Source: Thioalkalivibrio sulfidiphilus
GTDB lineage: Bacteria; Pseudomonadota; Gammaproteobacteria; Ectothiorhodospirales; Ectothiorhodospiraceae
Assembly: GCF_000377945.1 (NCBI RefSeq)
Contig: NZ_KB898927.1
Location: forward strand, 1-64,000
Direction: 5' to 3'
Length of the DNA: 64,000 bases
Part shown: positions 3,039-48,251 of the stretch, one piece after another
Position numbering within the stretch: position 1 is the stretch's first letter
Layout: each line of letters begins with the position of its first letter
Notes under the pieces: generated by a model
What the model saw: only the letters and a program-made list of their open reading frames with translations
The model's database searches: none
What the model was told of the DNA's origin: nothing
Made by a program: the position numbers and the translations under genes

Positions 3039-3254
3039 ATGGGCCAGATCCTGCCAGCCATCACCCCACAGCAAGCGTCGTTCATCCGCGCCCAGCCCCT
3101 GTACTTCGTGGCCAGCGCGCCCCGGGCCGATGACGGCCACATCAACCTCTCGCCCAAGGGTCCCGAGGGGGTGCTGGACTATCAGCGGCGCAAGAATGCG
3201 CTCAGCATCGACGGTCAGCCCGCGCCCGGCATCGACACGGGGGAACAGCCATGA
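3039..3254 (+). pseudogene. Internally deleted PNPOx-like flavoprotein gene (71 codons left)
   Basis: The N-terminal half (ATPQQASFIRAQ-like helix, YFVASAPRADDGHINLSPKG) is the start of pyridoxamine 5'-phosphate oxidase-family proteins that are normally about 180-200 residues. The remainder (PEGVLDYQRRKNALSIDG) matches what I know as the extreme C-terminus of the same family. The two ends are joined in frame at a shared KG dipeptide, so the FMN-binding barrel core of roughly 115 residues is missing. The frame remains open and overlaps the next gene by ATGA, so a short peptide may still be translated. Enzyme function is very unlikely. Confidence 0.65.
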
Positions 3255-3625
3255 GCGGCCGTTTTCTCGGCATCCACCACGCCAGCCTGATCGTGGCCGA
3301 TACGGCGCGCGCGCTCGCCTTCTACCGGGACGTGCTGGGCCTGCCGGAGCTTGAGCGCCCCGATCTGCCGTTTCCCGGGGCGTGGCTCGGGGCGGGCGAT
3401 CAACAGATCCACCTGCTGGAGCTGCCCAATCCCGACCCGGTGGACGGCCGCCCCGAGCACGGCGGCCGGGACCGGCACGTGGCGTTCTCGGTTTTTGGTC
3501 TGGAGGCGATCAGGCAGCGGCTGGAGTCAGCGGGTGTGGCTTATACGATGAGCCGTTCCGGCAGGCCGGCGCTGTTTGTCAGGGACCCGGATGGCAATGC
3601 AATGGAGCTTATCGCAAGTGGCTAG
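3251..3625 (+). CDS. VOC (glyoxalase/bleomycin-resistance/dioxygenase) superfamily protein
   Basis: This 124-residue single-module VOC protein contains IHHASLIVADTARALAFYRD and DRHVAFSVFGLEAI, with a terminal FVRDPDGNAMELI. Metal-ligand candidates are H10, H53 or H74 and the final E of MELI. The substrate cannot be told from sequence; lactoylglutathione lyase-type or unknown small-molecule roles are possible. Its ATG overlaps the stop of the gutted upstream gene (ATGA). The last codons (AGT GGC TAG) lie inside the left arm of the hairpin repeat at 3617-3724, so the repeat supplies the stop codon. Confidence 0.8.
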   Translation: MSGRFLGIHHASLIVADTARALAFYRDVLGLPELERPDLPFPGAWLGAGDQQIHLLELPNPDPVDGRPEHGGRDRHVAFSVFGLEAIRQRLESAGVAYTMSRSGRPALFVRDPDGNAMELIASG

Positions 3626-3724
3626 TGGCAAGTCTCAAGTGGCAAGGGAAACCACTGTCTCCCAGAGGGAGAGGGGATCAGTTTGATGACTTTCCTTGCC
3701 ACTTGAGACTTGCCACTAGCCACT
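3617..3724. repeat. Hairpin repeat, 7-nt-period family (GTGGCAA type)
   Basis: The left arm 3617-3647 (units AGTGGCT, AGTGGCA, AGTCTCA, AGTGGCA) is exactly complementary to 3694-3724 across about 31 positions, with a loop of about 46 bases. It sits between two convergent genes. Both stop codons (TAG of the VOC gene and TAG of glnD) fall inside the arms, and both proteins end in Ser-Gly from the same repeat bases. A sister copy is at 44604-44740. Confidence 0.85.
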
Positions 3725-6424
3725 GCCTTCCAAGGCTTCCCGCAACGCCTTCTCGATCTCCCCCTGACGTTCCCGGTCCAGGATGGGGCGGTCTTCCAGG
3801 TCGGTGATGTAGAACACGTCGTCCGCCTGTTCGCCGGCGGTGGCGATCTTGGCGTTGTGCACCTTGATGCCGCAGCGGGTCAGCGTGGTGCCGATGCGCG
3901 ACAGCAGGCCGGGGCGGTCGCCGGTGGTGATGGCCAGGAGGGTGCGGTTGAAGTGCAGGCGATCGCCGAACTCGATACGGGTGGGCACGTTGAAGTGCTT
4001 GAGCCGGCGCGGGGTACTGCGCACCACGGCGGTGGGCGGCTGGTCCGGATTGCCGAGACGCTCGGTGAGCACCTGGGCGATCTCGTCCATGCGCAACGGG
4101 TCCATCACCGGGTGACCCTCGTCCTCCAGTACCAGGAAGGTGTCCAGGGTCTTGCCGCTGGGCGTGGTGATGATGCGCGCGTCCACGATGTCCAGGCCCA
4201 GCTGGGTGAGCGCCGTTGTGGTCAGCGCAAAGAGGTTGGGATGGTCCTCGGTGTAGAGGAAGATCTCGGTGCTGCCCCGGGCAGTCTCGCGGCGCACCCG
4301 CACCAGGGGACGGGCGTCCGGATCCGACTCCAGCACCGCCCGGGTGTGCCAGGCGATCTCGTCGGCGGAGTGGCGCAGGAAGTATTCGGGCTCGAACTCC
4401 TCCCAGAGCCTGAGACACGCGGCCTCGTCCATGCCCTGGTCCCGCAGCAGGCCGAGCGCCTGGGTCTGGGCCTCGTGGACCAGTTCTTCCTGGTCCGGCG
4501 GGTTGTCCAGGCCCCGGCGCAGCACCCGCTGGGTGGCGCCGTAGAGGGTGGACAGGAGGGAGTCCTTCCATGAATTCCACAGCTCCGGGTTGGTGCCGCG
4601 GATGTCGGCCACGGTGAGCAGGTAGAGGTAGTCCAGGCGGGTGCTGTTGCCCACCTGGGCCGCGAAGTCCTGCACCACGTCCGGGTCCGAGATGTCCTTG
4701 CGCTGGGCGGTCAGGGACATGAGCAGGTGGGCGCGCACCAGCCAGGCCACCAGGTTGGCGTCGTACTGGGACAGGCCGTGGTTGAGGCAGAACTCGCGGG
4801 CCTCCTCGGCCCCCAGCTCTGAATGATCCCCGCCCCGGCCCTTGGCGATGTCGTGGAACAGGCCGGCCAGATACAGCAGCTCGGGCTTGGGGATCCCCTT
4901 GAAGACGTGGCTGCAATGGGGCAGTTCGTCGGCCAGCTCGGGGACGGCGAAGCGGCGCAGGTTGCGGATCACGAACAGGGTGTGCTCGTCCACGGTGAAG
5001 GCGTGGAACAGGTCGTACTGCATGCGCCCGACGATCAGGCCGAAGGCGGGCAGGTAGGCGGCCAGTACGCCGTAGCGGTTCATGCGCCGCAGCTGGTGGG
5101 TCAGGCCCTGGGGCTGGCGCAGGATCTCCATGAACAGGCTGCGGCTGGCCAGGCTGGCGCGAAAGTCCTCGTCGATCAGGTGCCGGTGGGCGCGGATCTG
5201 GCGGATGGTGGCAGCGCGTACACCCTGCAGTTCCGGATGCTGTTCCAGCAGCAGGAAGATCTCCAGCAGGGCCTGGGGATGTTGCTCGAAGACCCGTTCG
5301 TGGACGGTCTCGATGTATCCGTGACGGGCCTGGAAGCGGCGGTTGATGGGTACGGGGGTGTCGTCACCCTTGCCTGGCAGCAGGGCCTCCCGGAAATGCT
5401 GCAGCAGCATCTCGTTGAGCCGCTCCAGTTCCATGACCGTGCGGAAGTACTGCTGCATGAACTGCTCCACCGCCAGGTTGTGATTCTGGTCGGTGAAGCC
5501 CAGCTGGTTGGCCAGGGCCCGCTGGTGGTCGAACAGCAGGCGGTCCTCCTTGCGCCCGGTGAGGGTGTGCAGGGCGAAGCGCACCCGCCACAGGAAGGTC
5601 TGGCCGTCCACCAGGTCCCGGTACTCGGCCTCGTTGAGGAAGTCCTGGGCCACCAGTTCGTGCAGGCTGCTGGCGCCGAAGTGGCGCTGGCTCACCCAGC
5701 CGATCATCTGGATGTCGCGCAGGCCGCCGGGGCTTTCCTTGAGGTTGGGTTCCAGGCGGTAGGCGGTGTCGCCGAAGCGGTGGTGGCGCATCTCCTGTTC
5801 GCGGAGCTTGGCGGCGAAGTATTCGGCGCTGGCCCAGGTGCGTTCGGGGGACATGGCCGCTGCAAGGCGCCCCATGAGTCCGTCGTCTCCGGCCAGAAGG
5901 CGGGCCTCCATGAGGTTGGTGGCCACGGTGATGTCGCGCGCCGCCTCCTCGGTGCACTCTTCCAGGCTGCGCACGCTGTGGCCCACCTGCAGGCCGATGT
6001 CCCAGAGGAAGGTGAGGAAGCGGCTGATGGCCTCGCCGGTCTCATCGGCCAGCGGGCCGTCGTGCAGCAGCAGCAGGTCTACGTCCGAGCCCGGGTGCAG
6101 CTCCCCGCGGCCGTAACCGCCCACGGCGATCAGGGCCATGTCCGGGCGGGCCTCCAGGCCGAAGCCCTCCCAGGCCAGGGCCAGGATGCGGTCGATGATG
6201 GCGGCCCGGCCGTGCACCAGTTCCACCACGCTGACCCCGGAGCGGAAGCCCGCCTCCAGGGTGCGCCGGGCGGCCTCCAGGCAGTCGCCGTAGGCCTTGA
6301 TGTCGGTCAGGTGGGCGCGCAGGGTGCGCTCGTGGTGCCCCCAGTCCAGGGGCAGGGCCACTGCGTCCGGCAGGGTGACCCAGTCGGTATGGCTGCGGGG
6401 TTCGACGGGGGAGGCAATGGCCAT
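3716..6424 (-). CDS. glnD: Bifunctional PII uridylyltransferase / uridylyl-removing enzyme
   Basis: GlnD is the glutamine sensor that uridylylates and deuridylylates PII proteins. The 902 residues match the family (about 890). The nucleotidyltransferase motif GGYGRGELHPGSDVDLLLL is at about 102-120. The HD-domain signature (AGLFHDIAKGRGGDHSELG) is near residue 530, and two C-terminal ACT domains follow (EIFLYTEDHPNLFALTTT and LLAITTGDRPGLLSRIG). An open frame continues upstream into map antisense; the ATG at 6424, five bases after the map stop, fits family length. The last two codons and stop lie in a hairpin repeat. Confidence 0.95.
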   Translation of the reverse strand: MAIASPVEPRSHTDWVTLPDAVALPLDWGHHERTLRAHLTDIKAYGDCLEAARRTLEAGFRSGVSVVELVHGRAAIIDRILALAWEGFGLEARPDMALIAVGGYGRGELHPGSDVDLLLLHDGPLADETGEAISRFLTFLWDIGLQVGHSVRSLEECTEEAARDITVATNLMEARLLAGDDGLMGRLAAAMSPERTWASAEYFAAKLREQEMRHHRFGDTAYRLEPNLKESPGGLRDIQMIGWVSQRHFGASSLHELVAQDFLNEAEYRDLVDGQTFLWRVRFALHTLTGRKEDRLLFDHQRALANQLGFTDQNHNLAVEQFMQQYFRTVMELERLNEMLLQHFREALLPGKGDDTPVPINRRFQARHGYIETVHERVFEQHPQALLEIFLLLEQHPELQGVRAATIRQIRAHRHLIDEDFRASLASRSLFMEILRQPQGLTHQLRRMNRYGVLAAYLPAFGLIVGRMQYDLFHAFTVDEHTLFVIRNLRRFAVPELADELPHCSHVFKGIPKPELLYLAGLFHDIAKGRGGDHSELGAEEAREFCLNHGLSQYDANLVAWLVRAHLLMSLTAQRKDISDPDVVQDFAAQVGNSTRLDYLYLLTVADIRGTNPELWNSWKDSLLSTLYGATQRVLRRGLDNPPDQEELVHEAQTQALGLLRDQGMDEAACLRLWEEFEPEYFLRHSADEIAWHTRAVLESDPDARPLVRVRRETARGSTEIFLYTEDHPNLFALTTTALTQLGLDIVDARIITTPSGKTLDTFLVLEDEGHPVMDPLRMDEIAQVLTERLGNPDQPPTAVVRSTPRRLKHFNVPTRIEFGDRLHFNRTLLAITTGDRPGLLSRIGTTLTRCGIKVHNAKIATAGEQADDVFYITDLEDRPILDRERQGEIEKALREALEGSG

Positions 6425-23833: not shown

Positions 23834-23918
23834 GAGGGGATCCGGTTTTTCAGGTTAATCAATGGATTGGAAAATTGGCGCCGGGACCCGTGAGGGCTGC
23901 CGGTGCTGTGGTAGCATT

Positions 23919-24158
23919 GTTCGGCCCGTCCATGGGCCTCACCCCTGCGGGGCTAGCGCGATGAATCGCTCCGGGCGATTCATTGTTCGGCCCGTCCATG
24001 GGCCTCACCCCTGCGGGGCTAGCGCGATGAATCACTCCGGGCGATTCATTGTTCGGCCCGTCCATGGGCCTCACCCCTGTGGGCTTGCGCGATGAATCGC
24101 TCCGGGTGATTCATAGTTCGGCCCGTCCAGGGGCCTTGCCCCTGTGGGGCCTGAGCGG
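23919..24158. repeat. Tandem array of 66-base triple-hairpin units (3.6 copies)
   Basis: Units start at 23919, 23985, 24051 and 24116 (the last truncated). Each holds three inverted repeats: GGCCC/GGGCC, CCCC/GGGG around TGC, and ATGAATCG/CGATTCAT around a 7-base loop. The minus strand is open across units with a 22-codon period (RASPAGVRPMDGPNNESPGA...). That is the same frame and partly the same peptide (SPxG) as the cdsA insertion. It fills the 361-base gap between divergent gnnA and rnhB, where I see no gene. Confidence 0.85.
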
Positions 24159-28501: not shown

Positions 28502-28681
28502 CCCGCATATCTCACCACCCTTCTACTGCGGCCGCCGATCTGCTCGCTGTGACGGGGCGTGCTCACTTCAGCCGGCTTGACGTAGTGTCGGCTACGCCGG
28601 CGCCGTCTTCCGGTCCGCGCGCCCCGTCACAGCGGCATCTCGACGCCCTCGCTACGAACGGTGGTGAGATATGCGGGCTAG
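28498..28681. mobile_element. MITE-like element, 184 bases, with 22-base terminal inverted repeats
   Basis: The ends 28498-28519 and 28660-28681 are perfect inverted repeats beginning CTAGCCCGCATATCTCACCA. A second nested inverted repeat (CTGTGACGGGGCG near 28547 with CGCCCCGTCACAG near 28619) lies inside, so the element can fold into a large cruciform. It has no coding capacity. The dnaE stop codon TAG is part of the left end. The outermost CTAG is itself palindromic, so a target duplication cannot be told apart from the repeat end. Confidence 0.75.
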
Positions 28682-28689
28682 AAGGGCGA

Positions 28690-28798
28690 GTGGAAGTGCG
28701 AAGTGTGAAGTGTGAATTGGGAAGTCGGAAGTGGGGGTGAGGGTGGTTCCATTCACACTTCCCAATTCACACTTCTCCCTTCAATTCGCACTTCCCAC
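28690..28798. repeat. Hairpin repeat, 7-nt-period family (GTGCGAA type), before accA
   Basis: The left arm is a run of 7-nt units (GTGCGAA, GTGTGAA, GTGTGAA, TTGGGAA, GTCGGAA). The right arm (about 28754-28798) is its complement. It directly follows the MITE-like element, and the two fill the 359-base gap between dnaE and accA. Confidence 0.8.
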
Positions 28799-28860: not shown

Positions 28861-29820
28861 ATGAACCCTGATTTTCTCGACTTTGAACAGCCGATCGCCG
28901 AACTTGAGGCCAAGATCGAGGAACTTCGCTATGTGGGTGATGACGCCGAGGTCAACATCCAGGAAGAGATCTCGCGGCTGCAGGCCAAGTGCAAGTCCCT
29001 GACCGAGTCCATCTTCTCCAAGCTCACCGCCTGGCAGGTGGCCCAGCTGGCCCGCCATCCGCGCCGTCCCTACACCCTGGACTACATCGGCCGCCTGTTC
29101 ACCGACTTCGAGGAACTGCACGGCGATCGCGCCTATGCCGATGACGCCGCCATCGTGGGCGGCATGGCCCGCTTCGACGGACAGCCGGTGGTGGTCATCG
29201 GCCACCAGAAAGGCCGCGACACCAAGGAAAAGATCCGCCGCAACTTCGGCATGCCCCGTCCCGAGGGCTACCGCAAGGCCCTGCGCCTGATGCGTCTGGC
29301 GGAGCGCTTCCGCCTGCCGGTCTTCACCTTCATCGACACCCCCGGCGCCTATCCCGGCGTGGGTGCCGAGGAGCGTGGCCAGAGCGAGGCCATCGCCATG
29401 AACCTGCAGGTGATGGCGGGTCTGCGCACCCCCATCATCTGCACCGTGATCGGCGAGGGCGGCTCCGGTGGCGCGCTGGCCATCGGCGTGGGTGACCGGG
29501 TGATGATGCTCCAGTACAGCACCTATTCGGTGATCTCCCCCGAGGGCTGCGCCTCCATCCTGTGGAAGAGTGCCGAGCGCGCTTCCGATGCCGCAGAGGC
29601 CCTGGGTATCACCTCCGCCCGGCTCAAGGAGCTGGGCCTGATCGACACCATCATCCCCGAGCCCCTGGGCGGCGCCCACCGCAACCCGGAGCAGATGGCC
29701 GGCAACCTGCACACCGCGCTCGCCGAGGCCCTGCAGACCTTCAGCGCCATGGACACCGATGCGCTGCTGGAACGTCGCTATGGGCGGCTGATGGGGTATG
29801 GGGAATATAAGGAAGGGTGA
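28861..29820 (+). CDS. accA: Acetyl-CoA carboxylase carboxyltransferase subunit alpha
   Basis: AccA pairs with AccD to transfer carboxyl from carboxybiotin to acetyl-CoA, the first committed step of fatty acid synthesis. The 319 residues contain [20 protein letters not shown], a [17 protein letters not shown] segment and [20 protein letters not shown], then [19 protein letters not shown]. Length is normal. It lies downstream of dnaE as in E. coli, but with two repeat elements between. A hairpin repeat starts three bases after the stop. Confidence 0.97.
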
Positions 29821-29823
29821 GAA

Positions 29824-29899
29824 AAGTGCGAAGTGTGAATTGGGAAGTGGGAAGTAAAGGCTGTCAATTCGCACTTCCCAATTCACACTTCGCACTTCA
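29824..29899. repeat. Hairpin repeat, 7-nt-period family (GTGCGAA type), accA-tilS
   Basis: The left arm AAGTGCGAAGTGTGAATTGG (from 29824) pairs with the right arm ending CACACTTCGCACTT (29899), with a loop of about 16 bases. It occupies almost the whole 84-base gap; the tilS start is six bases after it. Confidence 0.85.
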
Positions 29900-35405: not shown

Positions 35406-35641
35406 ATGGACAGGATGAACAGGTTTTTTCAGGATTCACAGGATCTTAAGAGCCAAGAAAATATTAGACAGGATTTACAGGATTTACAGGATTTACAGGA
35501 TTTACAGGATTTACAGGATTTACAGGATTTACAGGATTTCAAAAAGCCGCCTTTTAATCATGTAAATCCTGTAAATCCTGTCCATTATGTTTTTGTTCTT
35601 CATCCTGTGAATCCTGAAAAAACCTGTTCATCCTGTCCATT
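35405..35641. repeat. Large hairpin repeat with 40-base perfect arms and an internal 9-nt minisatellite
   Basis: Arms 35405-35444 and 35602-35641 are exact complements over 40 bases (starting AATGGACAGGATGAACAGG). Inside, ACAGGATTT is repeated eight times (35468-35539) and pairs with a shorter complementary stretch at about 35555-35583. Across the minisatellite one frame would read repeated LQD, which I regard as non-coding. It fills the kdsA-eno gap. Confidence 0.9.
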
Positions 35642-44599: not shown

Positions 44600-44603
44600 G
44601 ACA

Positions 44604-44740
44604 GTGGCAAGTGGCAAGTGGCAAGTGGCAAGTGGCAAGTGGCAAGTGGCAAGTGGCAAGGATACACCGTGTACCCCCGCACTTCCCGGAGGGAAGTGCC
44701 CGCCTTTCCTTGCCACTTGAGACTAGCCACTGGCCACTGC
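44604..44740. repeat. Hairpin repeat, 7-nt-period family (GTGGCAA type), with eight perfect tandem units
   Basis: GTGGCAA is repeated eight times without change (44604-44659). The right arm (44708-44740, ending CTAGCCACTGGCCACTGCC) is nearly identical to the right arm at 3694-3724. It lies between the divergent rlmK-like and selO starts and ends five bases upstream of the rlmK-like ATG. Confidence 0.88.
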
Positions 44741-44797
44741 CTTAAACCCCGCTGTTTCTGTGTTGATACGGTGCCTCCCGGGCCCCACCATCTGCCC

Positions 44798-48166: not shown

Positions 48167-48180
48167 AGGAGATCGCAGAG

Positions 48181-48246
48181 ACAAGATACAAGAGGCAAGA
48201 GGCAAGAAAAAACGGTTTCAACTTGCCTCTTGCCTCTTGCCTCTAG
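48181..48246. repeat. Hairpin repeat, 7-nt-period family (GAGGCAA type)
   Basis: The units ACAAGAT, ACAAGAG, GCAAGAG, GCAAG (left) pair with CTTGC, CTCTTGC, CTCTTGC, CTCT (right, 48222-48246) over a 15-base loop. It lies between the convergent yajQ and 48252 genes. Confidence 0.85.
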
Positions 48247-48251
48247 CGCCT

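Follow-up and report, generated by a model that had tools for sequence, protein, structure and literature searches.

Two convergent genes, a VOC/glyoxalase-superfamily gene (3251-3625, plus strand) and glnD for the PII uridylyltransferase (3716-6424, minus strand, start approximate), meet at a long hairpin at 3617-3724 of the window, the 64-kb stretch of DNA analysed here. The VOC protein matches the Pfam model Glyoxalase (PF00903) at 1.2e-16, with the match ending at residue 120 of 124. GlnD matches GlnD_UR_UTase (4.4e-50) as well as HD and ACT domains, and the ACT match stops before the tail. The VOC reading frame closes with GAG CTT ATC GCA AGT GGC TAG (the last five codons at 3611-3625) and the protein ends in ELIASG. 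At least AGT GGC TAG is repeat sequence. The glnD frame closes with GCC TTG GAA GGC AGT GGC TAG, with its stop at 3716-3718 on the minus strand and a protein ending in ALREALEGSG. The sequence bears out the first-pass annotation, which had claimed that both genes take a Ser-Gly-stop end from AGTGGCTAG in each arm.

The hairpin consists of 34-nt arms (3617-3650 and 3691-3724) that are 97% complementary and enclose a 40-nt loop (3651-3690). The left arm, on the plus strand, is built of the units AGTGGCT, AGTGGCA, AGTCTCA and AGTGGCA followed by AGGGAA, and VOC terminates at its first TAG (3623-3625). The right arm is an inverted copy on the minus strand and its first TAG (3716-3718) is the GlnD stop. 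A window scan places AGTGGCTAG in the outermost unit of both arms (3617-3625 on the plus and 3716-3724 on the minus strand), with a third occurrence at 44723-44731 inside another copy of the same repeat family. Shuffled windows contain a mean of 0.31 occurrences, and none of 100 shuffles reaches the three observed. The loop carries a short inner palindrome, TCTCCCAGAGGGAGA, which is related to the loop palindrome CCCTCTCCCTGAGGGAGAGGG of many other copies. The folding energy of the hairpin strand is -81.6 kcal/mol (z = -10.7), and strong folding is predicted on either strand. Rfam matches, all to plant and animal microRNA models and below their gathering scores, were discarded as chance hits of a kind that long hairpins produce in general, and the plasmid collection contained no relevant match. 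No terminator-like site with a T run lies in 3300-4100 on either strand; ordinary intrinsic termination is thus unsupported at this site.

The extent of 3617-3724 given earlier holds for the hairpin itself, and the limit on the GlnD side falls short of the element, which runs to about 3730. The six bases at 3725-3730 (minus strand) read GAAGGC, an outer terminus shared by many copies, so the Glu-Gly codons of GlnD just ahead of Ser-Gly-stop are also repeat sequence. A 42-bp exact match (100%) to another copy spans 3688-3729 and includes AAGGC of this terminus. On the VOC side, the terminus is a shorter variant, CAAGTGGC. The element abuts or overlaps the stop codons on both sides.

Judged by its sequence, the hairpin belongs to a dispersed family, specific to the genus, whose members are hairpins made of 7-bp units at gene 3' ends. 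We call this family d1. Copies follow a common plan of a terminus GAAGGCAGTGGC, 7-bp units (AGTGGCA, AGTGGCT, AGTCTCA or AGTAGCA), AGTGGCAAGGAAA, a variable loop often containing CCCTCTCCCTGAGGGAGAGGG, and the mirror image. The window copy has AGTGGCW/AGTCTCA heptamers with the terminus GAAGGCAGTGGC and is assigned to d1 accordingly. A search of the whole assembly returned 107 matches resolving into about 40 d1 places, numbers that are lower bounds at the sensitivity used. Two sister families use other 7-mers, of the AGAGACA type in d2 and of the AAGTGGGA type in d3. The d1 family is present in all five genus members and was not found elsewhere among 40 relatives, and d3 occurs in 5/5 genus members compared with 0/36 other family members. 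Pairing the two arms of a d1 copy gives no closer match than pairing arms across copies (1908/2000 permutations did at least as well), and concerted evolution of the arms is hence not claimed.

All three families also occur within the 64-kb window. A second d1 copy (44602-44743) lies between divergent genes and has its left arm expanded to eight perfect AGTGGCA units. A d2-type hairpin (48177-48249) sits in a convergent gap, with 10 bp to one stop codon and 2 bp to the other. Hairpins of the d3 type follow a gene ending at 29820 (29823-29899) and occupy an intergenic position at 28681-28783. Repeats of other kinds in the window are a perfect 9-bp tandem of ACAGGATTT in eight units in an intergenic gap (35468-35539) and a 66-bp unit repeated 3.6 times with 92% matches between genes (23915-24150).

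Copies of the family are tightly packed against gene 3' ends. With gene ends called by a simple codon-usage gene finder trained on the window and element edges set by pattern, a gene 3' end lies inside or within 12 bp of the element in 32/39 d1 copies. The 39 loci comprise 14 convergent, 22 co-directional and 3 divergent contexts. In co-directional gaps with room to measure, d1 lies near the upstream stop, at a mean relative position of 0.26 compared with an expected 0.5, a value as low as which arose in 13 of 100000 uniform simulations. Among the 20 best-scoring d3 copies, 18 abut or contain a gene 3' end, 11 lie between convergent genes, and the arms provide TGA or TAA stops. Packing is looser in d2, with 9 of the 20 best-scoring copies abutting a gene 3' end. 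Convergent genes that both stop inside the arms recur at L012, L220 and L235, the latter two being d3 loci. At L024 and L028, neighbouring genes on the other side of the copy keep their own T-tract terminators as seen in the sequence, which fits an element serving the gene that it adjoins. At L020 (about 1430-1593), a d1 copy follows the 3' end of a putative 4.5S SRP RNA gene, recognised by eye. The 3'-end preference of d1 may thus reach a non-coding RNA gene.

The stops inside d1 copies number 11 TAG, 4 TAA and no TGA. Stop usage across the window is dominated by TGA (50 of 62 stops), with 5 TAA and 7 TAG, two of the latter being those of VOC and glnD. The TAG excess inside d1 is strong even with VOC and glnD left out (Fisher p = 9e-7). 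On the coding-strand side, the sole stop in d1 arms is the TAG created where a T-ending unit meets the next (AGTGGCT-AG), and the outer unit boundary AGTGGC-TAG forms an amber codon on both strands. Since an in-frame d1 TAG is always preceded by AGT GGC, the protein must end in Ser-Gly. The shared ends of VOC and GlnD thus need no special event. Across the 39 loci, all 11 genes stopping on d1 TAGs end in Ser-Gly, namely VOC, GlnD and the genes at L011, L012, L015, L018, L019, L026, L027, L041 and L043; L019 uses the variant AGTGGT-TAG with the same reading. A coincidence of a hairpin ending on TAG beside two genes that happen to share Ser-Gly ends could appeal to Ser-Gly being a common pair and to the sister ortholog of L011, which ends in PSG-TGA in the absence of d1. 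Such a coincidence is extremely improbable given the 11 genes with this end on d1 TAGs while TAG is otherwise rare in the window, the membership of the terminal bases in a repeat family, and relatives without Ser-Gly ends for both genes. We rejected it on the shuffles, the 11 genes and the Fisher test.

Four genus relatives (G001 to G004) reveal the native ends of both genes. The closest is G004, with about 95-96% identity in VOC and glnD. The VOC gene ends in MEAP-TAG in G001, G002 and G004, and in IGAT-TAA in G003. GlnD ends in ALE-TAA in the same three relatives and in ALD-TAA in G003, so that the C-terminal alignment proposed in the first-pass annotation yields native ends that differ from those of the window. 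Ser-Gly-stop ends in relatives lacking the hairpin were found for neither protein. In the window lineage, MEAP-TAG became IASG-TAG in VOC, with four residues rewritten and the length unchanged. In glnD, the native TAA was lost and Gly-Ser-Gly was gained (ALEGSG-TAG), making the C-terminus longer than in genus relatives. Between the two alternatives raised initially, exact insertion at both stops or overwriting of the original 3' ends, the native ends in sister species support overwriting. Beyond ALREAL(E/D/Q), the GlnD tail is variable in length and sequence outside the genus, and the change of the tail is therefore probably neutral.

The gap between VOC and glnD holds heptamer repeats, differing in kind, in every genus member. 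In G001 and G002, d2 repeats adjoin VOC and d3 repeats adjoin glnD, and G003 combines d1 at one end of the gap with d3 at the opposite end. The gaps in G003 (L080, about 1999-2034 onward) and G002 (L079) are chimeric, with a d3 arm next to glnD and an arm of the d1 or d2 type next to VOC. The G004 gap has a d2 hairpin of AGAGACA and AGATTCA units, into whose CTAG an IS5-like element later inserted, splitting the hairpin. The insertion (L078, about 1720-2880) carries a putative IS5-like transposase of 317 aa in the end CTAG of the hairpin, with CTAG on both sides, and illustrates that hairpin ends can be IS targets. An apparently independent heptamer array is found in an unrelated gammaproteobacterial MAG (L135, about 3768 onward), where the glnD stop, TGA, opens a (TGATGCG)n array that is followed by partly complementary repeats. 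Because all genus members have heptamer repeats in the gap, the comparison shows that d1 came to this locus in place of an older heptamer hairpin of another kind and did not drop into an empty intergenic gap. Aligned with the sister genes, this replacement is shown to have rewritten the last VOC codons and displaced the TAA of glnD, and both genes now use the TAGs of the arms.

Exchange between families extends beyond this locus. We placed 38 d1 sites in G004 through their coding flanks, and found 24 with d1, 7 with d2, 4 with d3 and 3 with none. The site orthologous to 44602-44743 is among those carrying d3 rather than d1. Hence, 11/14 of the sites without d1 hold d2 or d3. If occupancy were independent, at least 11/14 would be expected with p = 1.4e-7 at a rate of 9/62 (window 3' ends) and with p = 1e-3 at a generous rate of 0.35; these background rates are rough and the direction is clear. 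In these orthologous sequences, a heptamer hairpin of one dialect or another tends to occupy the same stops. Gene 3' ends in the genus could even be exchangeable hairpin cassettes, in which at least three dialects swap in place at the same stops, each bringing its own stops on both strands (TAG in d1 and d2, TGA in d3). We put this forward tentatively and at less than even confidence. If true, the turnover of repeats would keep changing the C-termini of many proteins and leave a 3' hairpin in place.

Arms might alternatively grow in place by replication slippage and template switching, overwriting non-essential DNA until important coding sequence is reached, which would account for arms ending at stops. 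Perfect heptamer runs confined to one arm (eight AGTGGCA units at L031, long stretches at L044 and at the orthologous site, repeated AGATTCA in G001), the rewriting of the VOC tail without a change of length, and the two-dialect chimeras in G002 and G003 all point in this direction, as do the differing lengths of heptamer arrays in Xanthomonas and Nostoc (PMC4692102). However, growth in place leaves complete switches of both arms at one site unexplained, and template-switch correction should raise the identity of arms within copies above that between copies, contrary to what is observed. We regard such growth as quite improbable as the main explanation.

The provision of stop codons by repeats has precedents. 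Xanthomonas genomes contain GGGAATC heptamers at more than 180 dispersed sites, often as inverted pairs able to form stem-loops, which are rare between divergent genes and strongly biased to lie at or over stop codons, and their lengths vary at the same genes between species (PMC4692102). Counterpart repeats in Nostoc use GGGGA(C/T)T (PMC4692102). The window family shares the tandem 7-mers, the inverted pairs, the 3'-end bias and the stop overlap with the Xanthomonas heptamers. In contrast, the 7-mers themselves differ: those of Xanthomonas are of the G-quadruplex type, whereas d1 units contain only GG, with GGG solely in the inner AGGGAA. Furthermore, three dialects are exchanged at the same sites here, the arms stop both convergent genes, and REP-like palindromes are often found in the loop.

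Flanking ORFs often obtain a TAG stop from GTAG REPs, and Thioalkalivibrio HL-EbGR7 is listed with GTAG-5 REPs (PMC3733652). GTAG REPs, SMAG and REPINs with RAYT transposases are likewise short palindromes that lie downstream of genes and in convergent gaps. The d1 arms differ from GTAG REPs in being arrays of about 35 bp made of 7-bp tandem units and in having no linked RAYT among the loci searched. The d1 ends lack the GTAG tetranucleotide and instead have termini GAAGGCAGTGGCTAG / CGCAAGTGGCTAG, which carry CTAG. A rival explanation takes d1 for a miniature transposon, MITE or REPIN-like, that is mobilized by a transposase in trans and targets sites near stops or older hairpins. The overlap with stops would then reflect insertion-site choice with no retained function. 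Such an origin fits the scatter of near-identical copies, which have inverted terminal arms and share the outer terminus GAAGGCAGTGGC, the presence/absence at the orthologous sites L019, L026 and L038, and the three Y1_Tnp (RAYT-type) genes in the genome, and GTAG REPs are themselves held to be RAYT-mobilized while often supplying TAG stops (PMC3733652). Against it, none of the three Y1_Tnp loci has heptamer arms within flanks of roughly 1.5 kb, and the matches listed include neither an autonomous arm-flanked element nor an arm pair about 1 kb apart. No target-site duplication is apparent in the aligned flanks, among which the copy between VOC and glnD offers no clean empty site for comparison. 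The GTAG hallmark is missing from the termini. Random insertion also leaves the presence of a different dialect at the same stop in sister species unexplained. We therefore consider a miniature transposon unlikely.

MITEs of the Correia/NEMIS, ERIC and RUP types are similarly small non-coding elements with inverted ends beside genes, and they are transcribed and fold into stems (PMC3733652). Their ends are transposase TIRs, whereas d1 arms are heptamer arrays. In Neisseria and Pasteurellaceae, paired DNA uptake sequences act as terminators, forming inverted pairs of a short word just after stops. The unit and length of d1 differ from such uptake sequences, the stem-loops of which have been noted (PMC1590033). 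Stem-loops in bacteria generally favour 3' ends and convergent gaps (PMC1590033). A literature search on heptamers in Thioalkalivibrio returned nothing relevant. We regard d1 as a new family among known stop-proximal repeats: it lacks the GTAG ends and, in the flanks searched, the repeat-flanked RAYT, yet behaves like the Xanthomonas heptamers and GTAG REPs. That dialects are exchanged in place was less to be expected.

Taken as a whole, we favour with moderate confidence a stop-packed family of heptamer hairpins in which d1 replaced an older hairpin, the hairpin serves as a 3' stem and stop capture is a side effect. The hairpin would be transcribed with either gene and might behave as a REP does, or a stem in a 3' UTR: it could block decay from the 3' end, make read-through harder from both sides, or do both. 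Selection would keep the presence of a hairpin, with the 7-mer dialect being interchangeable. Where the hairpin abuts a stop, small indels might destroy the native stop and let an in-frame TAG of the arm take over, with any arm running into a reading frame giving the Ser-Gly-stop ends observed. Such a takeover would do no harm, as the C-terminal tails concerned are not conserved. L012 probably shows one step of stop capture, through a small junction change; there, the sister genome reads cct-TGA-GGC-AGT-GGC-TAG and the window genome cct-GAA-GGC-AGT-GGC-TAG, with a d1 hairpin in both. A transcribed 3' stem would fit the position at 3' ends, the avoidance of divergent gaps, the strong folding and the retention of a hairpin when the dialect changes, and we infer mRNA 3'-end protection or hindrance of read-through as its role. 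Points against the favoured explanation are the looser packing of d2, the three d1 copies between divergent genes, the lack of a T tract and the lack of within-copy covariation. As there is no covariation beyond the family consensus, selected pairing is unsupported by the comparison of arms.

The locus documents a traceable takeover of translation termination by a repeat in two genes, one of which encodes the nitrogen regulator GlnD, and the prior ends can be read from sister species. Such behaviour is familiar from repeats of this sort, and the present example is unusually clean. For annotators, Ser-Gly-stop ends in this genus should be read as repeat-derived. Species differences in C-terminal tails need not be adaptive. 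The three interchangeable dialects in one genus raise the question of whether 3'-end repeats are kept for a function, with the hairpin constant and the sequence free, or persist as selfish DNA.
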